23,661 nucleotides of DNA from a virus, in IMG/VR virus record IMGVR_UViG_3300006793_000286, positions 1-23,661 of that record; one strand, written 5' to 3'. Within the stretch, counting starts at the first letter, position 1, and every line of letters begins with the position of its first letter. A model generated the notes under the pieces. It searched no databases, was not told the DNA's origin, and worked only from the letters and a program-made list of their open reading frames with translations. The translations under genes were made by a program, and so were the position numbers. Positions 13,236 through 23,661 of the stretch are shown piece by piece.

Positions 13236-13614
13236 TTTTGATCTGTACGCGAATTTTACAAAGTCTGAATTTGACTGCAAGCATTCAGGAAAGAATGAAA
13301 TGCAGCATTCGTTCATGTCAAAGCTGCAATCACTGCGCACAGCGTATGGTAAGCCTATGAAGATCACTTCAGGCTTTCGTGATTTCACGCACCCTATTGA
13401 AGCAAAGAAGTCAAGAAAGAACGGTGCGCATCCAACAGGAAAAGCGTGTGACATTTCCATCAGCAGAAAAGAAGCATATCAGCTTTTGAAGTTGGCTGTT
13501 GAATTAGGGTTCACAGGTATTGGCTTCAAGCAAAAAGGTTCAGGTCGTTTCATACATCTTGACACGATTGAAGACAATGATCTTCAACCAAGACCTTCGA
13601 TTTGGTCATATTGA
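13225..13614 (+). CDS. M15-family peptidase endolysin (VanY/Peptidase_M15_3-like)
   Basis: From the ATG at 13225 the product has 129 residues. ITSGFRD (residues 47-53) and GAHPTGKACDIS (68-78) give the M15 zinc motif H-x-x-G-x-A-x-D (His69, Asp76), and FIHLD (109-113) supplies the second zinc His111. These metallopeptidases cut peptidoglycan peptides, typically L-Ala-D-Glu or D-Ala-D-Ala bonds. No signal peptide is visible, so export through the holin is expected. An in-frame ATG at 13186 would overlap the holin gene by 50 bases; 13225 overlaps by 11 and starts at a typical N-terminus. Confidence 0.88.
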   Translation: MKANFDLYANFTKSEFDCKHSGKNEMQHSFMSKLQSLRTAYGKPMKITSGFRDFTHPIEAKKSRKNGAHPTGKACDISISRKEAYQLLKLAVELGFTGIGFKQKGSGRFIHLDTIEDNDLQPRPSIWSY

Positions 13615-13967
13615 AAGTCATTGAATTCATACAGAAGTGGTGGATGGTGATCATAATTGCTGTCATAGCACTTCTTTTCGCATCTGCTGCACTTTCTTTG
13701 TTGTCTGATGGTCTTGCACAGAAAAAAGAATTGAAAGCGTTAAAACGCGCCAAAACAGAAGAACTGCAAAAGCAAGAAGATCATTTCAATGGCATCATTG
13801 CAAGTTATCAGGACAGTCTGAAGCTGATTGACTTGCGAATTGATAGCTTTGACATTGCACTTGGTGTAAAAGATGAACAACTAAACAACACACATGATGA
13901 AGTTCAATTGCTTTCAGGTGATAGTCTTGCTATTGTTGACGCACTTCAACGCGTTTTCACAAGATGA
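13602..13967 (+). CDS. Rz-like inner-membrane spanin subunit
   Basis: The 121-residue protein has an N-terminal membrane anchor (about residues 13-36: WWMVIIIAVIALLFASAALS) followed by a long charged helix likely to form a coiled coil (KKELKALKRAKTEELQKQE). This is the N-in/C-out layout of Rz i-spanins, which cross the periplasm to contact an outer-membrane partner and disrupt the outer membrane. It directly follows the endolysin, overlapping it by 13 bases, and its 3' end overlaps the next gene in another frame, as in Rz/Rz1. Confidence 0.72.
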   Translation: MVILKVIEFIQKWWMVIIIAVIALLFASAALSLLSDGLAQKKELKALKRAKTEELQKQEDHFNGIIASYQDSLKLIDLRIDSFDIALGVKDEQLNNTHDEVQLLSGDSLAIVDALQRVFTR

Positions 13968-14328
13968 TGTTCTTGTCATTTGGTATGAAGAACAGACACG
14001 TTACTGCATCACAGAACAACAAGCACTGCTGACAGTAGAACTTGACATGCAGAATGAAATTCACAAAGGTCAGATCATAGACCTGAAAGGAAAGAACGCT
14101 GAACTTCAAAAGAAGGTTGATGCAAAAGACAAGATCATTGAAGCCACTGACAGCATCATTGAAGTCAAAGATGAACAACACGAACTGACCAAAAAAGAAC
14201 TGCGTCAGCGAAAGAATAAAGCCATCAGAGAATGGTTCAAGAACAATGCTGAAAAGCTGCTGATCGGTTCAGGTGCTTTTGTCGGTGGTGTTGCTGTTGG
14301 TATTGGAACAGGTTTCAGTGTCAGATAG
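13894..14328 (+). CDS. Rz1-partner candidate with signal peptide and C-terminal hydrophobic segment
   Basis: The 144-residue protein overlaps the Rz-like gene by 74 bases in a different frame. It starts MMKFNCFQVIVLLLLTHFNA followed by FSQDD: a signal peptide with the AFSQ cleavage style common in Bacteroidota. The middle is a coiled coil (about residues 55-120) with repeated K-IIEA and V-DEQ patterns. The C-terminal LLIGSGAFVGGVAVGIG (about 123-139) is a glycine-rich hydrophobic segment that could insert into a membrane. No lipobox Cys is present, so it is not a standard Rz1 lipoprotein. It probably serves the outer-membrane step of lysis. Stop codon is TAG. Confidence 0.65.
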   Translation: MMKFNCFQVIVLLLLTHFNAFSQDDVLVIWYEEQTRYCITEQQALLTVELDMQNEIHKGQIIDLKGKNAELQKKVDAKDKIIEATDSIIEVKDEQHELTKKELRQRKNKAIREWFKNNAEKLLIGSGAFVGGVAVGIGTGFSVR

Positions 14329-14346
14329 CAGTCAAAATTCAATCAT

Positions 14347-14400
14347 TTAACTTATAAGTTAATACGTGTAACACGTAAATTTGTGCTTATAACGCAAATT
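14347..14400. repeat. Three abutting palindromes
   Basis: Perfect palindrome TTAACTTATAAGTTAA (14347-14362), then TACGTGT-A-ACACGTA (14363-14377), then AATTTGTG/CGCAAATT with a seven-base loop (14378-14400, one G-T wobble). No base separates them. They lie between the last lysis gene and the first early-gene promoter. An operator array, a replication origin element or a strong transcript end are possible. Confidence 0.8.
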
Positions 14401-14414
14401 AATTCACAAAAAGC

Positions 14415-14445
14415 TTGCATAGTAACTTTCTATGATATACATTTG
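14415..14445 (+). promoter_or_regulatory. Early-region promoter, near-consensus Bacteroidota type
   Basis: TTG (14415-14417), 20 bases, TACATTTG (14438-14445). Between the boxes CATAG (14419-14423) and CTATG (14430-14434) form an inverted repeat, a possible operator. The first gene starts at 14468, about 15 bases after the expected transcript start, behind an A-rich leader. Confidence 0.78.
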
Positions 14446-14467
14446 ACCTAACAAACAAACAGAAAGC

Positions 14468-14695
14468 ATGACAACTCTAAAAGAAATACAAGAAAGCACA
14501 AAGTCACTTCAGCAAATAGTGATGAACAGATCAAAGGTTATCATCAGTAAAAGCACTTTGACTATTGAACGTTACACAACAGATGGTTATCTTGATTTCG
14601 TTGGTGATCTTAGCTACACACCACAGCGCACAAAATACTACCAAGATGAAGTGAAGTTTTGGAACGCTGTCAAACGATATTTAAAGCAGCAATGA
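14468..14695 (+). CDS. Small hypothetical early protein
   Basis: The 75-residue protein starts MTTLKEIQESTKSLQQIVMN and is basic, with a helical front and a Tyr-rich middle (LSYTPQRTKYYQ). It is the first gene behind the strong early promoter and the triple palindrome, the usual place for a host-takeover or regulatory protein. No domain recognised. Its stop overlaps the next start by ATGA. Confidence 0.7.
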   Translation: MTTLKEIQESTKSLQQIVMNRSKVIISKSTLTIERYTTDGYLDFVGDLSYTPQRTKYYQDEVKFWNAVKRYLKQQ

Positions 14696-15021
14696 TGTCA
14701 GACTACCTGATTGACAACTTAGATCTGAAAGGCGTTAGAAACGTATTGAACGAAACAAACATGAGAAGACCACACAACTATTCAACAGAAACGATCACAT
14801 TCAAAGGTGTTAGAATGACTGTCACAGGTTATGCAGAAGAAAGCGAATTTGAAGTTGACGTGATCAGTCTTGACGATGACACACAGCTTCATGATCTGCT
14901 TGCAGACATCACTGAAAATCCAATGTCAGAGATTGCAAGACTTGCAGCAGAAGCGCATCAAGAAAGCGTTCAGTCAATCGGTGACGATGACAATTATGAA
15001 GCAAATCATCTTGACGATTAA
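14692..15021 (+). CDS. Small acidic hypothetical early protein
   Basis: The 109-residue protein from the ATG at 14692 (ATGA overlap) starts MMSDYLIDNLDLKGVRNVLN. A beta-rich middle (ITFKGVRMTVTGYAEESEFEV) is followed by a very acidic C-terminal half rich in Asp, Glu and His (DDDNYEANHLDD). An upstream in-frame ATG at 14659 would overlap the previous gene by 37 bases and is less likely. Acidic small early proteins can mimic DNA, but nothing specific supports that here. Confidence 0.7.
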   Translation: MMSDYLIDNLDLKGVRNVLNETNMRRPHNYSTETITFKGVRMTVTGYAEESEFEVDVISLDDDTQLHDLLADITENPMSEIARLAAEAHQESVQSIGDDDNYEANHLDD

Positions 15022-15055
15022 ACACAGAAAAAGAATATCTTTGCAAAATAATTTG

Positions 15056-15063
15056 TACTTTTA
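15056..15063 (+). promoter_or_regulatory. Possible -7 box of promoter
   Basis: TACTTTTA followed by CAGTGAAC, the same arrangement as the promoter at 18350 (TACCTTTACAGTGAAC). TTTG at 15040-15043 is only 12 bases upstream, so the -33 element is doubtful. Confidence 0.45.
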
Positions 15064-15085
15064 CAGTGAACTAAAAACAACAGAA

Positions 15086-15316
15086 ATGCGAAACAAAGAA
15101 AGCATAGAAGAAAGCAACATTGAACTGCGAAGAATAAACAAAGCACTTCCAAGTGGTGGTGTGCGTGCGCTTGCTGCATCAACAAATTTGAATTACTATG
15201 TCGTGTACAGAACACTGCAAGGAACAACTAAGCATTGGGATAAACGTCATGATAAAATTCTGAAAGCTTCACGTGCTTTGCTCAAAGATGCAGGTGTTCA
15301 GTTGATCGAAGCATAA
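15086..15316 (+). CDS. Small putative helix-turn-helix DNA-binding protein
   Basis: From the ATG at 15086 the product has 76 residues starting MRNKESIEESNIELRRINKA. The segment GVRALAASTNLNYYVVYRTL reads as a helix-turn-helix (alanine in the first helix, turn at TNLN, recognition helix YYVVYRTL) followed by a basic tail (KHWDKRHDKILKAS). A promoter-like -7 box lies upstream. Position in the early block suggests a transcription regulator, possibly acting on the palindromes or repeated promoters here. Longer in-frame starts would overlap the previous gene deeply and are rejected. Confidence 0.62.
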   Translation: MRNKESIEESNIELRRINKALPSGGVRALAASTNLNYYVVYRTLQGTTKHWDKRHDKILKASRALLKDAGVQLIEA

Positions 15317-15347
15317 AAAAAGCAAGCGCAACCTAAGTCACGCTTGC
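15314..15347 (-). terminator. Terminator-like hairpin facing the minus strand
   Basis: GCAAGCG (15322-15328) and CGCTTGC (15341-15347) form seven exact G/C-rich pairs. The run of seven A at 15314-15321 is on the left, so the U tract follows the hairpin only in leftward transcripts; on the plus side there is no T run. Confidence 0.6.
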
Positions 15348-15431
15348 ACAACAAACAAAACAGAAAGGGCGTCAAGAACAACGCCAAACTATTCAGAACT
15401 TCAAAACTAACAACAAAACAAAACAAAAGCA

Positions 15432-15731
15432 ATGAACGTCAATACTTTTACACAACGAACAGCCGAAAGCAAGCAGCGAATGTCTGTCAATGCGCGGCTA
15501 ACTGCACAGAAGGTGATCAGTACGCTGAACACTATTGGTGAAGAATACAAAACAGTGCATACAGACAAACAAACGCTTGGCGAACTGTGTAGAGTGCTTC
15601 AGGTGCAGTCAAAAGAAATCACCAACAGTCAATGGCAGTTGTTCATATCAAACAATGACAACGGTGCTGTGTGGCTTGAAGCTGCTTCATTATTTGACAC
15701 ACTATCAGACGCGTTCAATCCTTCAAAATAA
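15432..15731 (+). CDS. Hypothetical early protein upstream of ERF
   Basis: The 99-residue protein starts MNVNTFTQRTAESKQRMSVN and appears mostly helical, with a Trp in the last third (NGAVWLEAASLFDTL). It lies behind an A-rich leader and six bases before the recombination gene, so it is probably co-expressed with it. No known domain recognised. Confidence 0.68.
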   Translation: MNVNTFTQRTAESKQRMSVNARLTAQKVISTLNTIGEEYKTVHTDKQTLGELCRVLQVQSKEITNSQWQLFISNNDNGAVWLEAASLFDTLSDAFNPSK

Positions 15732-15737
15732 GAAAGC

Positions 15738-16283
15738 ATGAAAGATCTATACAAAGCATTATCAGCATTTCAGCAAGAATGTCCTGTGATACATCAAGAC
15801 ACGGAAGGCTACGGCTACACTTATGCCAACTTGAAGAAGATCTTCAGCACAATCAATCCAATACTTGCAAAGCATGGTCTTGGATATTATCAATCAGTTC
15901 AAAGTCAGCAGGTCAGCACCACTGTTTTCCATATCGCAACCGAACAAACAATTCATTCAGAAAGCGAAATTCCACAAGGTGTGCAGTTGAAAGGAATGAA
16001 TGACTTTCAAGTTCTTGGTTCTGCGATCACTTACTTCAAACGGTATCAAATTTCTGCACTGCTTGGATTGATCACTGACAAGGACATTGACGCAAGTGGT
16101 GAACAGACGAAAGCTGCAAAGCCAAAATCAAAGTCTGACACAAAGTGGTTGAACCCGAACACGCAAGAATGGACAGCAGCAGTCAAATTCCTTGCAGATG
16201 GTGGTGCGATGGCTGACATCAAGAAGAAATATGCCATCAGCAGAAATAATGAAGAAACTTTGATGGATGAAGTTTTAGGATAA
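15738..16283 (+). CDS. erf: ERF-family single-strand annealing recombinase
   Basis: The 181-residue protein starts MKDLYKALSAFQQECPVIHQ and contains the family hallmarks YGYTYANLKKI near residue 25, ILAKHGLGYYQSV (about 42-54), and LGSAITYFKRYQISALLGL (about 92-110), followed by a DKDIDAS turn. ERF proteins bind single strands and anneal homologous ends in phage recombination and genome circularisation. The C-terminal part (residues 115-181) is a Lys/Ser-rich linker followed by a small helical domain. RusA resolvase (17868) and DnaB (20596) nearby fit a replication-recombination block. Confidence 0.85.
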   Translation: MKDLYKALSAFQQECPVIHQDTEGYGYTYANLKKIFSTINPILAKHGLGYYQSVQSQQVSTTVFHIATEQTIHSESEIPQGVQLKGMNDFQVLGSAITYFKRYQISALLGLITDKDIDASGEQTKAAKPKSKSDTKWLNPNTQEWTAAVKFLADGGAMADIKKKYAISRNNEETLMDEVLG

Positions 16284-16483
16284 TGAGCAAACAACTATTT
16301 GAACAAATAAGAGAAACAGAATATCATGAAGAAATCACTTTACAACATCGAAGAAGAATATCTGAAAATCGCGAATCAGTTATCAGATGGCGAACTGACA
16401 GAAGAATTGGAAACAGCACTGATGATCAACGAACAAGAACTTCAGTCAAAGGCGATTGCCTACGCTTACGTGATCAAAGATGA
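16283..16483 (+). CDS. Doubtful overlapping frame starting at ERF stop
   Basis: A start joined to the ERF stop (TAATG) opens a 66-codon frame that overlaps the Gp157-like gene by 158 bases. The first 18 residues (MSKQLFEQIRETEYHEEI) look like a natural protein start, but the remainder is Arg-rich and resembles an out-of-frame reading. It may be a decayed or truncated small gene, a short coupling peptide, or chance. Low confidence. Confidence 0.25.
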   Translation: MSKQLFEQIRETEYHEEITLQHRRRISENRESVIRWRTDRRIGNSTDDQRTRTSVKGDCLRLRDQR

Positions 16484-16820
16484 AGATGCTGATGTGTCTG
16501 CTATTGATGACGAAATCAAGCGTCTGCAAGCGATAAAAAAAGCAAAGAACAACAAGATCAAAAGACTGAAAGACACTATTCACAGAGCAATGGACTTGTT
16601 CCAAATAAATGAAGTAAAAATTGCAATCATGACCATCAACTTCAGACGATCAGAAGGTGTCATTTGTACCGACACAGATGCTGTGATTCCTGAAGAACTT
16701 TGCACCGTTGTTCCTGAAACAAAGAAGCCGAATCTGACCAAGATCAAAGCAGCATTGAAAGCTGATCAGATGGTTGAAGGTTATGAGATTGAAGAACGAT
16801 TCAACTTGCAGATCAAATGA
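16326..16820 (+). CDS. Siphovirus Gp157-like protein
   Basis: The 164-residue protein starts MKKSLYNIEEEYLKIANQLS. The Gp157 family pattern is clear: an N-terminal L-Y-I--EY--L helix, then an acidic helix with AYAYVIKDEDADVSAIDDEI, a basic coiled coil (about 60-85, KRLQAIKKAKNNKIKRLKD), and a C-terminal domain with IPEELCTVVPETKKPNLTKI and a KAALK segment. The family is usually found beside recombination genes and is linked in streptococcal phages to a resistance-related protein; its biochemical role is unknown. Position next to ERF agrees with the family. Confidence 0.8.
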   Translation: MKKSLYNIEEEYLKIANQLSDGELTEELETALMINEQELQSKAIAYAYVIKDEDADVSAIDDEIKRLQAIKKAKNNKIKRLKDTIHRAMDLFQINEVKIAIMTINFRRSEGVICTDTDAVIPEELCTVVPETKKPNLTKIKAALKADQMVEGYEIEERFNLQIK

Positions 16821-17158
16821 AGTTTGAAAAGCAAATCACAGACTTGAACACGTATGTCAATCTGTACTACAAATCAGATCTTCAAGATGGAAATGAGTTG
16901 TCAATGCTACTTCAGAAGATCACTGGTCTGCTGTTCTTTCTTGAATCAATCAGAAGCACATCACATGATATGTTTGAACAGAAGATCTTCAACCTTGTGA
17001 AAGAGGGTTCAAGCGTGTCAAGGGCAACCAATGAAGCGCACGTGGCGCACCCTGAAATGTATCAACTGCGAAGAATCATGGATGGCGGCTACAAGATTGT
17101 CGATGCTATCAGAACCAACATCAGCTATTTGAAATCAGAAAGAAATCATTCATCATGA
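16817..17158 (+). CDS. Hypothetical protein in recombination block
   Basis: The 113-residue protein starts MKFEKQITDLNTYVNLYYKS, joined by ATGA overlaps to both neighbours. It appears helical throughout, with a hydrophobic middle (LLQKITGLLFFLESI) that is not long enough for a typical membrane span. Coupling to the methyltransferase fragment suggests co-expression. No domain recognised. Confidence 0.68.
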   Translation: MKFEKQITDLNTYVNLYYKSDLQDGNELSMLLQKITGLLFFLESIRSTSHDMFEQKIFNLVKEGSSVSRATNEAHVAHPEMYQLRRIMDGGYKIVDAIRTNISYLKSERNHSS

Positions 17159-17331
17159 ATATTTTTGAAGAACAAAAAGTGTTTTCAAAGAACTTGAAAG
17201 AATTGAGAAAAAGCAAGATGAAGTTCGTTGAATTCTTTGCAGGTGGTCGGTGCTTTGGGCGTGTAGCTGAAGCAGCAGGTCATGAAGTCATTTCAACAGA
17301 TTGGACAGCTTATGAAAACATTGACATTTAG
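17155..17331 (+). CDS. C5-cytosine methyltransferase, N-terminal part ending at in-frame TAG
   Basis: The 58-codon frame starts by ATGA overlap at 17155. Residues 23-36 (KFVEFFAGGRCFGR) are motif I of C5-cytosine methyltransferases, the S-adenosylmethionine-binding F-G-G loop, and EVISTDW (44-50) is motif II. The frame stops at TAG (17329-17331) and the next codon, ATG at 17332, is in the same frame and continues the enzyme. It is therefore the first piece of a gene split between motif II and the catalytic motif. TAG ends other genes here (1091, 14328), so general recoding is unlikely. The protein may exist as two associating pieces, be joined by read-through, or be inactive. Confidence 0.8.
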   Translation: MNIFEEQKVFSKNLKELRKSKMKFVEFFAGGRCFGRVAEAAGHEVISTDWTAYENIDI

Positions 17332-17871
17332 ATGGATGCTGAATGGCTTAGACCTTCAGACTTTCCTGAAGATGTTGATGGTGCGTGGTTGTCATTCGAT
17401 TGCACGTCTTATTCAATCGCTGCATGTAGTACGCACAGACACATGGACAAGTCACCAAAATCTGAATATGCGTTCAAGTGTGATCGTGTCAATCAGCACT
17501 GCATTGCAATGCTTGACCATTGGATTGAAAGAAATCCTGACTTTGTGTTTTGGATAGAAAATCCACGTGGCAACTTGCGTCACATGGAATGGATGAAACG
17601 CTTCACACGTCACACAGTTTGGTATTGTCAATACGGTGATGAACGCGCAAAACCAACTGACATTTGGACAAACTGCACAAATTGGAAGCCACGTGAAATG
17701 TGCAAGAATTACAAGTATGATGCTGATGGCAACATCATTGACAAGCATTGTCATCATGCTTCTGCAAGACGTGGTGCAAGAACAGGAACACAAGGAAGAA
17801 AAGGAAGCTTTGAACGTTCACTTGTTCCATTGCAATTGATAGAAGAAATCTTGACAGCAGCTACATCATGA
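17332..17871 (+). CDS. C5-cytosine methyltransferase, catalytic part
   Basis: This 179-residue frame begins with ATG right after the TAG of the N-terminal piece and in the same frame. DGAWLSFDCTSYSIAA (16-31) corresponds to motif IV, with Cys24 as the catalytic nucleophile, though the usual Pro before Cys is Asp. WIENPRGNLRH (74-84) is motif VI, and WYCQYGDERAKPTDIWTNC (97-115) matches the motif VIII/target-side segment of the phage subfamily with PPC-TTFS and ENPRG signatures. The full enzyme would be about 238 residues, short for a Dcm type, with little room for a target-recognition domain. It would modify cytosine in phage DNA, perhaps for protection from restriction. RusA follows by ATGA overlap. 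Confidence 0.8.
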   Translation: MDAEWLRPSDFPEDVDGAWLSFDCTSYSIAACSTHRHMDKSPKSEYAFKCDRVNQHCIAMLDHWIERNPDFVFWIENPRGNLRHMEWMKRFTRHTVWYCQYGDERAKPTDIWTNCTNWKPREMCKNYKYDADGNIIDKHCHHASARRGARTGTQGRKGSFERSLVPLQLIEEILTAATS

Positions 17872-18314
17872 AAGAATACAGAATTGACATTGATCCAATT
17901 CCTGCACCACGTATGACACAGCGCGATATTTGGAAGAAGCGTCCTGTTGTTGTCAAGTATCACGCATATCGTGATGCGATCAGGTACAAGCTACTTTCAC
18001 AAGGCATGAAGAAGCTTCCTTCAGCAATGGGTTTCACGTTTCACATGCCAATGCCTAAGTCATGGACAAAGAAGCGAAAAGAATACATGAATGGAAGACT
18101 GCACGAACAGAAGCCTGATCTTGACAATCTGATCAAAGCAGTGAAAGATGGCTTCACGTATGGAACACCATTCGATGACAGTCATGTGTCATGCTATGTC
18201 TTCGCACAGAAGGTGTGGAGTGTTGAAGGTGCTGTTGTAATCTATGAAGCACAGCAAGATGGAAGAACCATCATTCAAAAGATCATTGACTATTTGAAGA
18301 ATCTGATTGAATAA
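17868..18314 (+). CDS. rusA: RusA-like Holliday junction resolvase
   Basis: The 148-residue protein starts MKEYRIDIDPIPAPRMTQRD. KPDLDNLIKAVKDGF (residues 82-96) with Asp84 and Asp86, and FDDSHV (102-107), place the acidic metal-binding residues of RusA nucleases (equivalent to Asp70, Asp72 and Asp91 in E. coli RusA). The N-terminal PIPAPRM-Q and a Lys-rich stretch (KSWTKKRKEYM) also fit. It cuts four-way junctions made during ERF-mediated recombination or replication. Start overlaps the methyltransferase by ATGA. A noncoding stretch with a repeated promoter follows. Confidence 0.9.
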   Translation: MKEYRIDIDPIPAPRMTQRDIWKKRPVVVKYHAYRDAIRYKLLSQGMKKLPSAMGFTFHMPMPKSWTKKRKEYMNGRLHEQKPDLDNLIKAVKDGFTYGTPFDDSHVSCYVFAQKVWSVEGAVVIYEAQQDGRTIIQKIIDYLKNLIE

Positions 18315-18319
18315 AGCTG

Positions 18320-18357
18320 CAAAACATTTGCACGTGTCAATGATATGTGTACCTTTA
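18320..18357 (+). promoter_or_regulatory. Promoter, first copy of a 23-base repeat
   Basis: TTTG (18327-18330), 19 bases, TACCTTTA (18350-18357). Bases 18320-18342 are identical to 22066-22088, where a second promoter has the same spacing. TGCAAA-ACA-TTTGCA (18318-18332) is an inverted repeat over the -33 box, and ATTTGCACGTGTCAAT centres on the palindrome CACGTG, a possible operator. Confidence 0.78.
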
Positions 18358-18377
18358 CAGTGAACAAACGAAATAAA

Positions 18378-18551
18378 ATGATCAAGACAACAAATTACAA
18401 GCACTACCACGAACTAAAAGAAAAAGGAATATCTGTTCAGTTTGTAACTAAAAATCAAATGAAGAAACTTTCACAATCATATAAAAGAATTGACACAAAC
18501 AAAAACAACAAACATGAAAACAGAACAACAAATCATTCAGCAACATTTTGA
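18378..18551 (+). CDS. Small hypothetical basic protein
   Basis: From the ATG at 18378, 21 bases after the -7 box, a 57-residue product starts MIKTTNYKHYHELKEKGISV. It is Lys/Asn-rich with a predicted helical front. The last 13 codons overlap the next gene in another frame and read as low-complexity Asn/Thr/His, so the natural protein may effectively be the first 45 residues. First gene behind a strong early promoter; possible small regulator. No domain recognised. Confidence 0.5.
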   Translation: MIKTTNYKHYHELKEKGISVQFVTKNQMKKLSQSYKRIDTNKNNKHENRTTNHSATF

Positions 18552-18693
18552 AGCGATCAAGAAAATTGTTAGAAGACGCGACAAGACAGAAATGTATGAA
18601 CGCTTTCTTGAAATAGAAGCGCAATTTCACGAATATGATGAAGACATCAATCGCATCAATTCTTTTCTTGACATTGAAGGCGCAGCGGTATGA
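18514..18693 (+). CDS. Small hypothetical helical protein
   Basis: The 59-residue product from the ATG at 18514 starts MKTEQQIIQQHFEAIKKIVR and is helical, with charged RRRDKTEMYERFLEIE. It overlaps the next gene (ABC-ATPase/GNAT) by ATGA, indicating co-translation. Start follows an A-rich stretch, typical for this phage. Could be a partner of the downstream protein. Confidence 0.65.
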   Translation: MKTEQQIIQQHFEAIKKIVRRRDKTEMYERFLEIEAQFHEYDEDINRINSFLDIEGAAV

Positions 18694-19832
18694 AGTACAT
18701 TGAAAGATCAAACAAAATCACGCATGATGAATTCACTGAATATGTTTTTGAACAGTTTGACATTGAGAACACAGAAGAAACACGTGTGAAAATTCCAATG
18801 AATTTTGGCGCTGTCAGAACTTTTGATTGGAATATCGGTGTCATATACGGTGGTTCAGGAACAGGAAAGACAACGCTTTTGAAGGAATTTGGAGATCTGA
18901 CTTCAGACAACTTTTCAGAAGACAAGTCATTGATCAGTAATTTTGATTGGCTTGAACCAAAACAGGCAACCTTTCTGCTAACAGCCATGGGACTATGTTC
19001 TGTGCCTGCGTGGCTGCGCCCCTTTCACACGTTAAGCAATGGCGAACAATATCGCGCAGCGTTAGCGTATAAAGTAGGCAAAGCGTCTTCAAATGATGTC
19101 ATTTTGATTGATGAATACACATCTGTGGTTGATCGTGATGTGGCAAAGTCAATGTCAAACGCATTGCAGAAATACATCAGACGCGAAAACAAGAAAATCA
19201 TTCTTGCTTCTTGTCATTTCGATATTATGGAATGGTTGAACCCTGATTGGACATATTCACCACTGAAAGGGCGTGTCGAAAGACCGTCATGTCTTCGGCA
19301 ATCAAGACCAAAAATTGAACTTCAGATTTTTCGATGCCGATATGAAGCTTGGACCCTATTCAAACAACATCACTATCTGACCGAAGATCTTAATCCTTGC
19401 GCAGAAACATTTGTGCTATCAATGAACGGACAGCACATTGGCTTCTTTGGTATTCTTCCATTTCCTGGCGTTGGTGATGCAAAAACAAGAAGACTATCAC
19501 GAATGGTGATACTGCCTGACTTTCAAGGATTAGGCATTGGCACAAAGTCATTCAACTACCTATGTTCGTTATACGCTGCTGAAGATCATGTGATGTATGT
19601 CAGAACTGTGTCACCTGCACTTGGTAAATTCATGGAAAAGAATGAAAATTGGTCAGCAACATCATCAAACGGTAAAATTCCGCCAGATGACACATCAGGT
19701 CGAAAGTTGATGAAGCGTGCAGGATATTCTTACAAGTACATTGGAGCAAAATCTTCAGATGACACAGACATCATCAAATTCAAATCAACTGTTTGGAAAG
19801 ACGTTGCACAAAATCAGATTTCACTTTTTTAA
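18690..19832 (+). CDS. ABC-type ATPase fused to GNAT acyltransferase (Mom-like?)
   Basis: The 380-residue protein has two domains. The first (about residues 45-195) is an ABC-type ATPase: Walker A GGSGTGKT (54-61), signature-like LSNGEQ (115-120), Walker B VILIDEY (137-143, with Glu142 catalytic) and switch His176 (ASCHF). The second (about 215-365) is a GNAT fold: FKQHHYL, then TRRLSRMVILPDFQGLGIG (267-284), whose Q-G-L-G-I-G is the acetyl-CoA loop. No membrane partner is present, so it is a soluble ATPase. Phage Mu Mom, a GNAT-fold enzyme, modifies adenine in DNA; such fusions, next to a methyltransferase, may couple DNA-binding ATPase activity to base modification. Alternatives are tRNA or protein acylation. 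Domains are clear, substrate unknown. Confidence 0.85.
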   Translation: MKYIERSNKITHDEFTEYVFEQFDIENTEETRVKIPMNFGAVRTFDWNIGVIYGGSGTGKTTLLKEFGDLTSDNFSEDKSLISNFDWLEPKQATFLLTAMGLCSVPAWLRPFHTLSNGEQYRAALAYKVGKASSNDVILIDEYTSVVDRDVAKSMSNALQKYIRRENKKIILASCHFDIMEWLNPDWTYSPLKGRVERPSCLRQSRPKIELQIFRCRYEAWTLFKQHHYLTEDLNPCAETFVLSMNGQHIGFFGILPFPGVGDAKTRRLSRMVILPDFQGLGIGTKSFNYLCSLYAAEDHVMYVRTVSPALGKFMEKNENWSATSSNGKIPPDDTSGRKLMKRAGYSYKYIGAKSSDDTDIIKFKSTVWKDVAQNQISLF

Positions 19833-19833
19833 C

Positions 19834-19841
19834 TACATTTG
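19834..19841 (+). promoter_or_regulatory. Possible -7 box for replication gene
   Basis: TACATTTG matches TAnnTTTG exactly, two bases after the previous stop. No TTG lies at the expected distance upstream, so activity is uncertain. A transcript from near 19848 would carry the hairpin-rich leader before 19988. Confidence 0.4.
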
Positions 19842-19896
19842 CACAGTGCGTCTGACAAACGTGCTTGAAATCACTAACATGAAACACAATACAAAT

Positions 19897-19975
19897 TCAC
19901 GAAAGGAAGTAGGAACAGACGCTTGTTTGTTAGTGAACACCTGTTCTTCTGCGTTGTCAGCGCAGCCTTTCGTGA
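19897..19975 (+). ncRNA. Predicted three-way-junction leader RNA (candidate riboregulator)
   Basis: TCACGAAAGG (19897-19906) pairs exactly with CCTTTCGTGA (19966-19975). Inside are P2, AGGAACAG (19911-19918) with CTGTTCTT (19941-19948, one wobble), and P3, CTGCG (19949-19953) with CGCAG (19961-19965). P2 and P3 abut each other, and P3 abuts the closing strand of P1, so the helices could stack. The structure ends 12 bases before the ATG at 19988, where folding could control translation. No known riboswitch consensus was recognised. Confidence 0.6.
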
Positions 19976-19987
19976 TATTTAAAAATC

Positions 19988-20599
19988 ATGGCAAAAGACA
20001 AGAAATCATTCATTCTGTATTGTGATCAACGCGGAACATGGGAACGACTAAGCGATGAACAAGCAGGCAAGCTGATCAAACACGTTCTTGCGTATGTTAA
20101 TGATGAAAACCCTGAATCTGATTTCATCACTGAACTGGCATTTGAAGGAATCAAACGATCATTGAAAGCTGACTTGCAAAAATATGAGCAAATCAAAGCG
20201 AAGCGAATTGAAGCAGGTCGCAAAGGCGGCAAGCAAACGCAAGCAAATCAAGCAAATGCTTCTTTTGTTAAGCAAACGCAAGCAAATCAAGCTGTAAGTG
20301 TTACTGATACTGTAAGTGATAATGATATAATAAAACAAGGCGAAGACTTTGTGACATTCTTCAAGATCTACAACAAGAAGATGGACTTGCACAAGTGTGA
20401 ACGTGAATGGTCTGACATAGATTCTTCTGAACATAAAAAAATACTTTTGCACGTTCCGAAATATGTTGCAGCAACACCTGACATCAAATTCAGAAAGAAG
20501 CCTTTGAACTACTTGAAAGACAGAACATGGCAAGATGAAGATCTGCCAACAAACAAAACAACTGAAACAGCAGGAACATGGAAACCAAATCTGATATGA
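19988..20599 (+). CDS. Replication-initiation-like protein (DUF6291-like)
   Basis: The 203-residue protein starts MAKDKKSFILYCDQRGTWER. KSFILYCD, LSDEQAGKLIKHVLAYVNDE and FEGIKRSLKADLQKYEQIK are the recurring pattern of phage proteins annotated as DUF6291 or replication-initiation/replisome organisers. A basic EAGRKGGKQTQ stretch (about 75-85) leads to a low-complexity Gln/Ala/Asn linker with a repeated KQTQANQA, then a small C-terminal domain ending DRTWQDEDL, which resembles DnaB-loader tails. It precedes dnaB with an ATGA overlap, supporting a helicase-loading or origin-binding role. The structured leader upstream suggests its synthesis is controlled. Confidence 0.72.
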   Translation: MAKDKKSFILYCDQRGTWERLSDEQAGKLIKHVLAYVNDENPESDFITELAFEGIKRSLKADLQKYEQIKAKRIEAGRKGGKQTQANQANASFVKQTQANQAVSVTDTVSDNDIIKQGEDFVTFFKIYNKKMDLHKCEREWSDIDSSEHKKILLHVPKYVAATPDIKFRKKPLNYLKDRTWQDEDLPTNKTTETAGTWKPNLI

Positions 20600-21918
20600 A
20601 CATCGAACGGCAAGTGATCGGTGCATTGATCTTGAACCCTGATAATTATTTCAACGTGAATGAAATACTGTCAGCAAACACGTTTACTGGACGCGAAGAA
20701 AAAGCAATATTTGAAGCATTTGAAAAGATGTTCAACAGTGATCTTGACATCACGCTGATTCTGCTGCAAGAGCAGATTCACAAAGCAGGACACACTTTTG
20801 ACATTCTTTCAATCATTGACGATCTGAATTCAGGTCATGCTTTCATTGATCATTGCAGGGTGCTGAAAGAAAAAGAAATCAGGAAAGAACAGTCGAAACT
20901 TGGTTCTGAAATTCTGTTGAAATCAAACGATCCTGAAGCAGATCCATTTGAAACGAATGATCACATCATGTCAGAAGCTGAACGTGTTGTCAGTATGGTT
21001 GACTTTGGAAAGAAGAAAAGCAACGCTGATCTGATTCAAGAGGTCAAGCGTAAAATGAAGCACGCAAGCAATAGCGGTGGCATGACAGGTCTGCTGACAG
21101 GCTTTGAAGATCTTGACCGAATATACGGTGGCAGACAGAATTCTGATCTGATCATCAAAGCAGCGCGTCCTGCAATGGGCAAAACATCACAAGCATTGTG
21201 CGAAGCAAAGCACATGGCATTTGAAGACAACAGAAAGGTGGTCTTCTTCAGTCTTGAAATGAGTTGCGAACAGTTGATGCAGCGTCTTGTCAGTGTTCAC
21301 ACTGGAATTCAATTGAACAAGATCAGGAATGGCAGCTTGACTTCTGAACAGTGGAACGCATACTATGACCAAGAGGAATATTTGAGCAACGACAATCTGA
21401 TGATCGTGGATGATGTCTATTCATTGAACGCTATCAAAACACGATGCAGAAAGCTGAAGATGAAAGGTGCACTTGATGTTGTGTACATCGATTACTTGCA
21501 GTTGATCAATCACAAGGTTGATCGTGGTCGAAGCAAAGAAAATGAAGTCAGTGAAATATCACGATCACTGAAGATGTTGGCAAAGTCATTGGATGTGCCT
21601 GTTGTGGTTCTTAGTCAGTTATCAAGAGCAGTTGAAAGTCGTGGCGGTGACAAGCATCCAATGCTGTCAGACCTTCGTGACAGTGGCGCAATTGAACAAG
21701 ATGCTGATATAGTGGAATTCATCTTCAGACCTGAATACTATGATCAAGATGATCTTTCATTGTGCGGCAAAGCATACGTTCTGATTTCAAAGAACAGAAA
21801 CGGTGCTTGTGGTGACATTGAACTTTTCTTCAACAAAGAATGTACACGATTTGAGAATTCAAACTATGACAATGAATCCATACAACGTAGAGAACCCTAC
21901 GCTGAAGCTGATTTCTGA
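20596..21918 (+). CDS. dnaB: Replicative DNA helicase, DnaB family
   Basis: From the ATG at 20596 (ATGA overlap with the previous gene) the product has 440 residues. The N-terminal domain starts MNIERQVIGALILNPDNYF, typical of DnaB. The RecA-like domain carries Walker A KAARPAMGKTS (about 188-198), FFSLEMS, Walker B VVYIDYLQL, VVLSQLSR, and the arginine-finger region with LSDLRDSGAIEQDADIVEFI. It unwinds DNA at the fork as a hexamer. An in-frame ATG at 20578 adds six residues; 20596 fits the overlap style of the genome. Downstream of the initiator-like gene, it forms a replication pair. Confidence 0.93.
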   Translation: MNIERQVIGALILNPDNYFNVNEILSANTFTGREEKAIFEAFEKMFNSDLDITLILLQEQIHKAGHTFDILSIIDDLNSGHAFIDHCRVLKEKEIRKEQSKLGSEILLKSNDPEADPFETNDHIMSEAERVVSMVDFGKKKSNADLIQEVKRKMKHASNSGGMTGLLTGFEDLDRIYGGRQNSDLIIKAARPAMGKTSQALCEAKHMAFEDNRKVVFFSLEMSCEQLMQRLVSVHTGIQLNKIRNGSLTSEQWNAYYDQEEYLSNDNLMIVDDVYSLNAIKTRCRKLKMKGALDVVYIDYLQLINHKVDRGRSKENEVSEISRSLKMLAKSLDVPVVVLSQLSRAVESRGGDKHPMLSDLRDSGAIEQDADIVEFIFRPEYYDQDDLSLCGKAYVLISKNRNGACGDIELFFNKECTRFENSNYDNESIQRREPYAEADF

Positions 21919-22054
21919 AAAGGCTTCAGAAGCAACAGAAAGACTGATCAACAGCCAAAGCAAAAGTGATGCAGATGATGTGATATGTCTGACAAATCTT
22001 GAAATGAAGCTGCTGCAAAAAGCGATCATCAAGCACAAAAACAAAGAAAAGTGA
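21866..22054 (+). CDS. Small hypothetical protein overlapping dnaB end
   Basis: An ATG at 21866 (or 21872) opens a frame of 62 or 60 residues, starting MTMNPYNVENPTLKLISEKA. It overlaps dnaB by about 50 bases, more than usual here, but continues helical and charged to a Lys-rich end (IIKHKNKEK) across otherwise empty sequence. Probably a small accessory protein; no domain recognised. Confidence 0.52.
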   Translation: MTMNPYNVENPTLKLISEKASEATERLINSQSKSDADDVICLTNLEMKLLQKAIIKHKNKEK

Positions 22055-22065
22055 AAATAATTGCA

Positions 22066-22103
22066 CAAAACATTTGCACGTGTCAATGTTCTTTGTACTT
22101 TAG
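22066..22103 (+). promoter_or_regulatory. Promoter, second copy of the 23-base repeat
   Basis: TTTG (22073-22076), 19 bases, TACTTTAG (22096-22103). Bases 22066-22088 repeat 18320-18342 exactly, including ATTTGCACGTGTCAAT, while the following bases differ, so the repeated part is probably a regulator site plus -33 box. Confidence 0.78.
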
Positions 22104-22126
22104 CTGATGCAAACAAACAACGAGAT

Positions 22127-22342
22127 ATGAAAAACACAATTAAACAACTTACAGAATTATTGAACAGCGACATTGATGCTGATGATTTCTATGTGATAAC
22201 CACGTACATCGGGCAGATAAAATTTCAAGGTTATTATAGTGCTGCAAGGCTCAATAAGTATTCTGAACAAGGCTTTGAATTTAATTTGGATGGTGGGTAT
22301 ATGATTGCCGAAAAAGGTGAAATACAAATCATTTTAACTTGA
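22127..22342 (+). CDS. Small hypothetical protein behind repeated promoter
   Basis: From the ATG at 22127 the 71-residue product starts MKNTIKQLTELLNSDIDADD and reads as one helix followed by a beta-rich section (IGQIKFQGYYSAARLNKY, then FEFNLDGGYMIAEKGEIQI). Codon choice (TTA, GGT, CTC) is a little less like the rest of the phage. Longer in-frame starts lie inside the promoter and are rejected. No domain recognised. Confidence 0.65.
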   Translation: MKNTIKQLTELLNSDIDADDFYVITTYIGQIKFQGYYSAARLNKYSEQGFEFNLDGGYMIAEKGEIQIILT

Positions 22343-22346
22343 AATC

Positions 22347-22655
22347 ATGAAAATTCTTGACTGCGAAGAAATAGTGAAAGCAATGCTGCACAGGAAAGCA
22401 GTCTATCGTGACGATTACAGAAAACTGATTTCTGTTGTATGGTGGCATCAGATCAACTGTGACAAACAGATGACTGCACTTCAACTTCTGAACAAGCTGA
22501 CGAACAAGGAAATTCATCATCCTGAAAGCATCATGCGAGCGCGAAGAAAGATCCAAGAAGATCATCCTGAATTGCGTGGTGATACGTACAAGCAACGCAA
22601 GACAACGGAACAACAAGCGGTTCAGATTGAATTGGGTTATAATGCGAAAAGTTGA
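22347..22655 (+). CDS. Conserved-looking phage protein, possible DNA-binding
   Basis: The 102-residue protein starts MKILDCEEIVKAMLHRKAVY. A helical N-terminal part resembles a winged-helix or HTH unit, and SIMRARRKIQEDHPELRGDT (about 61-80) matches a pattern (I-RARRKIQE--PELRG) that I associate with small phage proteins of unknown function. It then ends in a basic/Gln-rich tail. Lies four bases after the previous gene; likely in the same transcript. Confidence 0.7.
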   Translation: MKILDCEEIVKAMLHRKAVYRDDYRKLISVVWWHQINCDKQMTALQLLNKLTNKEIHHPESIMRARRKIQEDHPELRGDTYKQRKTTEQQAVQIELGYNAKS

Positions 22656-22677
22656 ACGAAATCTTAAATGAAAAACC

Positions 22678-22737
22678 ATGACAAGAGAACAAGCAGAAAA
22701 GAGAGCAGAGGAACAGATAAGAACAGAGCTAAGATGA
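22678..22737 (+). CDS. 19-residue leader peptide candidate
   Basis: A 19-codon frame starting MTREQAEKRAEEQIRTELR ends with TGA overlapping the ATG at 22734 (ATGA). It is a regular charged helix and contains several GAG codons, like the gene it leads into. It may couple translation of the PAPS-reductase-like gene. Very short, so uncertain. Confidence 0.35.
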   Translation: MTREQAEKRAEEQIRTELR

Positions 22738-23606
22738 AAAATTTACTAGTATCTTTTTCGGGTGGAGAAACGTCAGCGTTCATGGCTCAATGGCTAAAGA
22801 GGCACTACAAAAATCTAGGTTATGAAAAAATTTGTTTTGTATTTGCCAATACTGGACAGGAAAACGAGCAGACACTAATATTTACAGAGCAATGCGACAA
22901 AGAATATAACTTGGGGGTCGTTTGGGTTGAGGCAAAAGTTACGCAAGAGAGAGGGAAGGGAGTTAGACATAGAGTTGTGAATTTTAAAAGTGCATCAAGA
23001 AACGGAGAGCCGTTTGAAGATGTGATTAAGAAGCTAGGCATAACAAACCACCCCAATCCTTTTTGCACTAGAGACACCAAACTTGCCCCAATAGAGTCTT
23101 ATGTGAAAGATCTTTTTAATGGAGAGAAGTTTGCCACTGCGATAGGTATACGAGTAGACGAGGTTGATAGGATTTCATCAAGCAGAAAAGACCGAAATAT
23201 AATATACCCACTCATAACATCCGTTCCAATGAGCAAGCAAAAAGTCAATTTCTGGTGGTCAAAACAACCGTTTAGATTAGAATTAAAAGGTTATCAAGGG
23301 AACTGTAAAACGTGTTGGAAGAAGTCAGACTTTAAGCTGTACCAATTAGCAAAAGAAGACGTTACTCAGTTTGGCTTTATGGATAGAATGGAGGAAAAAT
23401 ATGGGAGAGTAGGCTATGAATTTGAGCGTGACCCAAAAGCAAAAAATAGGACATTCTTCAGAAATCACAGAAGCACTCAAGATATAATTCGAGAATCAAG
23501 AGATTGGGGTGGATTTGTACGGGATGACTCATTAGATGTTAACGACCAACTGAGAATGTTTGATAGCGAGTCATGTGAGATTTATTCAAATTGTGGTGAT
23601 TTGTAA
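22734..23606 (+). CDS. PAPS-reductase-like PP-loop protein, foreign composition
   Basis: From the ATG at 22734 the product has 290 residues. SFSGGETSA (residues 7-15) is the SGG-x-(T/S)-S PP-loop that binds ATP or PAPS in the adenine-nucleotide alpha-hydrolase superfamily; FANTGQE follows on the second strand, as in PAPS reductases. HPNPFCTRDTKLAPI, GIRVDEVDR and GNCKTCWKKSD (two Cys) are shared with phage members. The phage proteins may reduce sulfate, modify nucleic acid, or act like DndC-type sulfur enzymes; which one cannot be told. Codon use differs sharply from the rest (many GAG, GGG, CTA, AGG), indicating recent acquisition. An ATG at 22668 adds a Lys/Arg-rich stretch and is less likely. 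Confidence 0.82.
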   Translation: MKNLLVSFSGGETSAFMAQWLKRHYKNLGYEKICFVFANTGQENEQTLIFTEQCDKEYNLGVVWVEAKVTQERGKGVRHRVVNFKSASRNGEPFEDVIKKLGITNHPNPFCTRDTKLAPIESYVKDLFNGEKFATAIGIRVDEVDRISSSRKDRNIIYPLITSVPMSKQKVNFWWSKQPFRLELKGYQGNCKTCWKKSDFKLYQLAKEDVTQFGFMDRMEEKYGRVGYEFERDPKAKNRTFFRNHRSTQDIIRESRDWGGFVRDDSLDVNDQLRMFDSESCEIYSNCGDL

Positions 23607-23661
23607 TGGAATTTATATACGTTGACGAAAATAATAAAGATGCTGTTGACCTAATACATCT
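23606..23661 (+). CDS. Start of a gene cut by the window edge
   Basis: TAATG joins the PAPS-reductase stop to a new frame starting MEFIYVDENNKDAVDLIH, open to the last base. Only 18 residues are visible, so nothing more can be said except that it is co-transcribed with the gene before it. Confidence 0.6.
   Translation, partial: MEFIYVDENNKDAVDLIH

Follow-up and report, generated by a model that had tools for sequence, protein, structure and literature searches.

A phage C5 cytosine methyltransferase gene divided between motifs II and III by a TAG with an abutting ATG: a candidate two-piece enzyme

Introduction

In the natural two-chain C5 cytosine methyltransferases described so far, the division falls within the variable region or beyond it; in M.AquI and M.EcoHK31I, the second chain carries motif IX, or motifs IX and X (PMC3404938). 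Engineering has pointed to another position: among circular permutants of M.MpeI and M.SssI, activity was highest in those opened between motifs II and III. Of the M.MpeI fragment pairs tested, [1-61]+[62-395] complemented best, while the equivalent M.SssI split, [1-57]+[58-386], was inactive (PMC5944983). Adjacent reading frames can be translated by termination-reinitiation, which needs overlaps or very short distances; in three E. coli gene pairs, a distance of 2 nt lowered reinitiation by 5, 20 and 70% (PMC10666635).

Here we analyse a virus record of 23,661 bases (hereafter the window) in which an in-frame TAG splits a small C5 cytosine methyltransferase gene into open reading frames (ORFs) of 58 and 179 amino acids (pieces A and B; Table 1). 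The explanation that we prefer, with a confidence falling somewhat short of even, is that the methyltransferase is made as two associating polypeptides via termination-reinitiation.

Results

Layout of the divided gene

The frame has the TAG as its single internal stop, reading YENIDI*MDAEW across the junction, and the ATG at 17332 abuts the TAG in the same frame. Upstream of the stop are motif I (FFAGGRCFG) and the motif II region (DW); downstream of it are the motif III Asp, motif IV (SFDC), motif VI (ENP) and the motif VIII region, such that the two ORFs together hold the C5 methyltransferase motif set. Reading the frame through thus bore out the first-pass annotation, which had described motifs I and II before, and IV, VI and VIII after, a single TAG directly followed by an in-frame ATG. 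A second contig, IMGVR_UViG_3300025103_000187, overlaps window positions 13518-23661, differs from it at six of 10,144 bases, has the same TAG and extends the phage genome to about 35.5 kb.

Table 1 Features at and around the divided methyltransferase gene.
Feature	Position	Strand	Evidence or remark
Upstream gene, 113 aa	16817..17158	+	Its TGA overlaps the next ATG (ATGA at 17155)
Methyltransferase piece A, 58 aa, motif I and motif II region	17155..17331	+	phrog_757, E 0.0047 alone
In-frame TAG, loop between motif II and motif III	17329..17331	+	Sequence, alignment, predicted fold
Methyltransferase piece B, 179 aa: motif III Asp, catalytic Cys, ENP, motif VIII region, C-terminal helix	17332..17871	+	phrog_757, E 1.6e-12 alone
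RusA-like Holliday junction resolvase	17868..18314	+	Its ATG overlaps the methyltransferase stop (ATGA at 17868)

The ATGA overlaps on either side of the gene mark the region as a chain of closely coupled genes, and translation of the RusA-like gene is probably coupled to that of piece B through the second overlap. Piece A begins with an extension of about 21 amino acids (17155-17217) that lacks a counterpart in nearly all relatives and was predicted with low confidence, as a helix at residues 3-17. The start of the relatives corresponds to the ATG at 17218, which may be the true start of the methyltransferase. Elsewhere in the window we observed an ABC-type ATPase fused to a GNAT acetyltransferase (18690-19832; phrog_11143, E 8e-137), which is matched by 233 stretches of IMG/VR, and, further downstream, a PAPS-reductase-like gene (22668-23606; phrog_424, E 1.7e-41).

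Family and predicted fold

The read-through protein matches PHROG 757 (DNA methyltransferase; E 1.3e-18), and each piece also matches by itself. In Pfam, piece A had an insignificant match and neither the read-through protein nor piece B had any; a profile search against PDB sequences returned none. An AlphaFold2 model built from 55 aligned sequences, with the TAG read as Lys, reached a pLDDT of 88.3 and a pTM of 0.84. Its top Foldseek match was M.HhaI (E 1e-7), and structural comparison gave Z 15.2 for M.HhaI (1fjx; 3.3 Å over 194) and Z 15.5 for DNMT3B (6kdl); the best solved structures were C5 cytosine methyltransferases (M.HhaI, M.MpeI, M.HaeIII and DNMT3A/3B). The motif IV cysteine (C83, counted over the whole protein, in piece B) and E135-N136 of motif VI are invariant in the 55 sequences, and SFDC replaces SPPC here as in the relatives L026, L032 and L187. 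Family, modelled fold and catalytic residues identify the gene product as a small phage C5 cytosine methyltransferase, with catalysis predicted.

Relatives at the junction

Of 304 viral relatives we fetched the best (about 80), along with about 60 in cellular genomes. Among the 84 that were aligned, the column of the TAG is variable and gap-free and holds a sense codon in every one; the residues encoded are diverse and include Ser, Ala, Val, Gln, Thr and Lys. The alignment, a check proposed in the first-pass annotation, cuts two ways. With sense codons in the relatives and no indels, the gene is no relic of long-standing decay. Near relatives read AAG ATC (L026, 66%), ACT ATG (L187, Winogradskyella) and CAG ATG (L188, Lacinutrix) at the junction, and AAG or CAG is one substitution away from TAG. 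On this alignment, the ATG after the TAG is inherited, being present in the two nearest cellular relatives, L187 and L188; we therefore rejected it as a newly selected start, and its presence is no sign of selected reinitiation.

A search of IMG/VR for TAG, TAA or TGA at the junction, with patterns that reach only members near the consensus, recovered only the second contig. Three further candidates (L020, L021 and L247) were rejected as chance matches outside any methyltransferase frame. An intact methyltransferase was absent from the 8 contigs of close phages tested (nearest by capsid and by the ATPase-GNAT gene), which are possibly fragments, and in a sample of 397 Flavobacteriaceae genomes a full-length copy occurred only in that of L187.

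Several members of the family are interrupted elsewhere. Frameshifts lie near motif VI (ENPRG) in L238 (C10 run), L241 (G9 run) and L009 (T7 run), and after ENPRGG in L242; these look like phase variation or homopolymer error. A copy in a Clostridia MAG (L243:4001-4405) has a stop-bearing insert after ENPRGG.

Position of the break and reinitiation

In the predicted fold, the TAG falls between motifs II and III, in a coil that follows the strand at residues 44-48 and precedes the motif III segment; this coil accounts for about 13 of 217 codons. When single-base routes to a stop were enumerated for the window gene and its relatives, 2-5% were directly followed by ATG, and 10-14% had an ATG in frame somewhere from -2 to +3 codons. 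The distance from stop to start at the window junction is 0 nt, within the productive range for reinitiation (PMC10666635), and we counted this, together with an operon chained by ATGA overlaps, in favour of reinitiation.

Ribosomes would accordingly be expected, under the two-polypeptide explanation, to translate piece A with its AdoMet-binding motif I and motif II region and to terminate at the TAG. A fraction would reinitiate at the abutting ATG to produce piece B, from motif III to the C-terminus, and the two pieces would then associate into an active methyltransferase. We infer reinitiation, association and activity from the arrangement itself, the position of the break in a loop that tolerates it, the start codon next to the stop and the conservation of the second piece, which together lead us to favour this explanation; a TAG common to two non-identical contigs was also counted for it. 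Against it we counted the inactive M.SssI split, the inherited ATG, the restriction of the stop to a single lineage and the frameshifted relatives. The proposal in the first-pass annotation that TAGATG yields two associating pieces is thus supported in part; published work on split enzymes (PMC5944983) and the conservation of the C-terminal part tilt the balance towards it.

Constraint on the two pieces

Constraint was measured by pairwise and relative-rate counts only. Over residues 79-238, with L187 as outgroup, the window had 15 unique changes and its sister sequence L026 had 14, indicating no acceleration, and differences from L026 and L187 were concentrated at third codon positions. Around the TAG (residues 46-78), the window and L187 differ at 50% of sites, compared with 25% for L026 and L187. 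Changes in the window at columns otherwise conserved by class show a similar pattern, six of the seven falling within residues 46-74 (scan P 0.03), as expected if the constraint on a continuous chain had eased. The relative-rate excess with outgroup L187 (P 0.06 for residues 46-78 and 0.04 for 22-78) is borderline and outgroup-dependent, not being significant with some other outgroups. These counts suggest that constraint was locally eased around the break while the catalytic part was kept, although they do not date the stop. The terminal branch of the window is the second longest of 78, and five near-invariant positions are changed; judged from the alignment, these could also mean relaxed function, and along with the borderline rate excess they weigh against a two-piece enzyme.

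Discussion

Recent inactivation

A serious rival, nearly as likely as the two-piece enzyme and given a little over a third of our confidence, is that a recent amber mutation switched the methyltransferase off in this phage lineage, leaving piece B as a remnant not yet decayed and perhaps still translated for the sake of RusA coupling alone. A recent nonsense change requires no extra assumptions, and the sense codons in all 84 aligned relatives, the long branch and the altered near-invariant residues would fit it. It stays nearly as likely because the stop occurs in a single lineage, the ATG is inherited, the M.SssI analogue is inactive and frameshifted members exist elsewhere in the family. 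However, we found no second lesion in 238 codons, the TAG is common to two contigs that differ elsewhere, and the changes are local to the break, not spread. Moreover, only the 2-5% of random nonsense changes noted above would place an ATG directly after the stop, and rarely would they fall in the break-tolerant loop.

Read-through and error

Partial decoding of the TAG, by a host amber suppressor or leaky termination, would give a low level of full-length enzyme; we consider this lesser rival unlikely, and possible if amber codons are suppressed in the host. In its favour, both sides of the TAG share one frame, almost any residue is tolerated at the column, K and Q among them, and the model of the full-length protein shows an intact C5 methyltransferase fold at high confidence. 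Yet a tRNA search of both contigs, covering about 35.5 kb of phage genome, found none, and RNA structure at the TAG is not unusual (z -1.17, not significant). The stops of the listed window ORFs comprise 19 TGA, 15 TAA and 3 TAG including the junction; TAG terminates ORFs at 1091 and 14328 and, in the continuation contig, another one (L024:795-1094). With at least three other phage genes ending in TAG and no tRNA in the search, general recoding was rejected and TAG is taken as a normal terminator in this phage. The first-pass argument that TAG ends other genes therefore holds, and the suppressor tRNA that it had proposed looking for did not appear in the phage genome; of the alternatives that it listed, read-through and recent amber mutation each keep the probability given here. 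Although the contigs are metagenomic, sequencing or assembly error, the remaining one, is very improbable, since a one-off error would hardly recur in two contigs that differ at six other sites.

Comparison with known systems

If the two-piece explanation is true, one substitution would have turned a one-chain enzyme into two chains, thanks to an adjacent inherited Met codon. If the pair works, evolution would be using the most break-tolerant loop found by engineering, that between motifs II and III, and targeted methylation work would gain a small split enzyme of natural origin. With slightly more reserve than for the two-piece explanation itself, we tentatively regard the gene as one for a natural C5 methyltransferase whose chain is cut between motifs II and III, a split point so far seen in engineered enzymes only; its two pieces would be made from one mRNA, with TAG/ATG reinitiation at zero distance, and then assemble.

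Code 15 crAss-like phages, in which TAG encodes Gln, also carry in-frame TAG inside phage genes (PMC9523058). Unlike in those phages, TAG terminates here, and we found one in-frame TAG and no suppressor tRNA. The phage DNA methyltransferases of PHROG 757 (for example Bacillus phage BM15 gp128, and the Winogradskyella and Lacinutrix loci L187 and L188) belong to the same family and share the same motifs; the window enzyme is 60-66% identical to its nearest relatives among them, without indels at the junction. The aligned relatives have a continuous ORF there, whereas the window has TAG. Like M.AquI and M.EcoHK31I, the window gene would distribute one C5 methyltransferase fold over two polypeptides, but its break lies between motifs II and III and not, as in those two enzymes, within the variable region or beyond it. 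The break is placed likewise in the engineered pair M.MpeI [1-61]+[62-395] and the permutants cp62M.MpeI and cp58M.SssI (PMC5944983); those splits are man-made, with the equivalent M.SssI pair inactive, whereas that of the window is natural.
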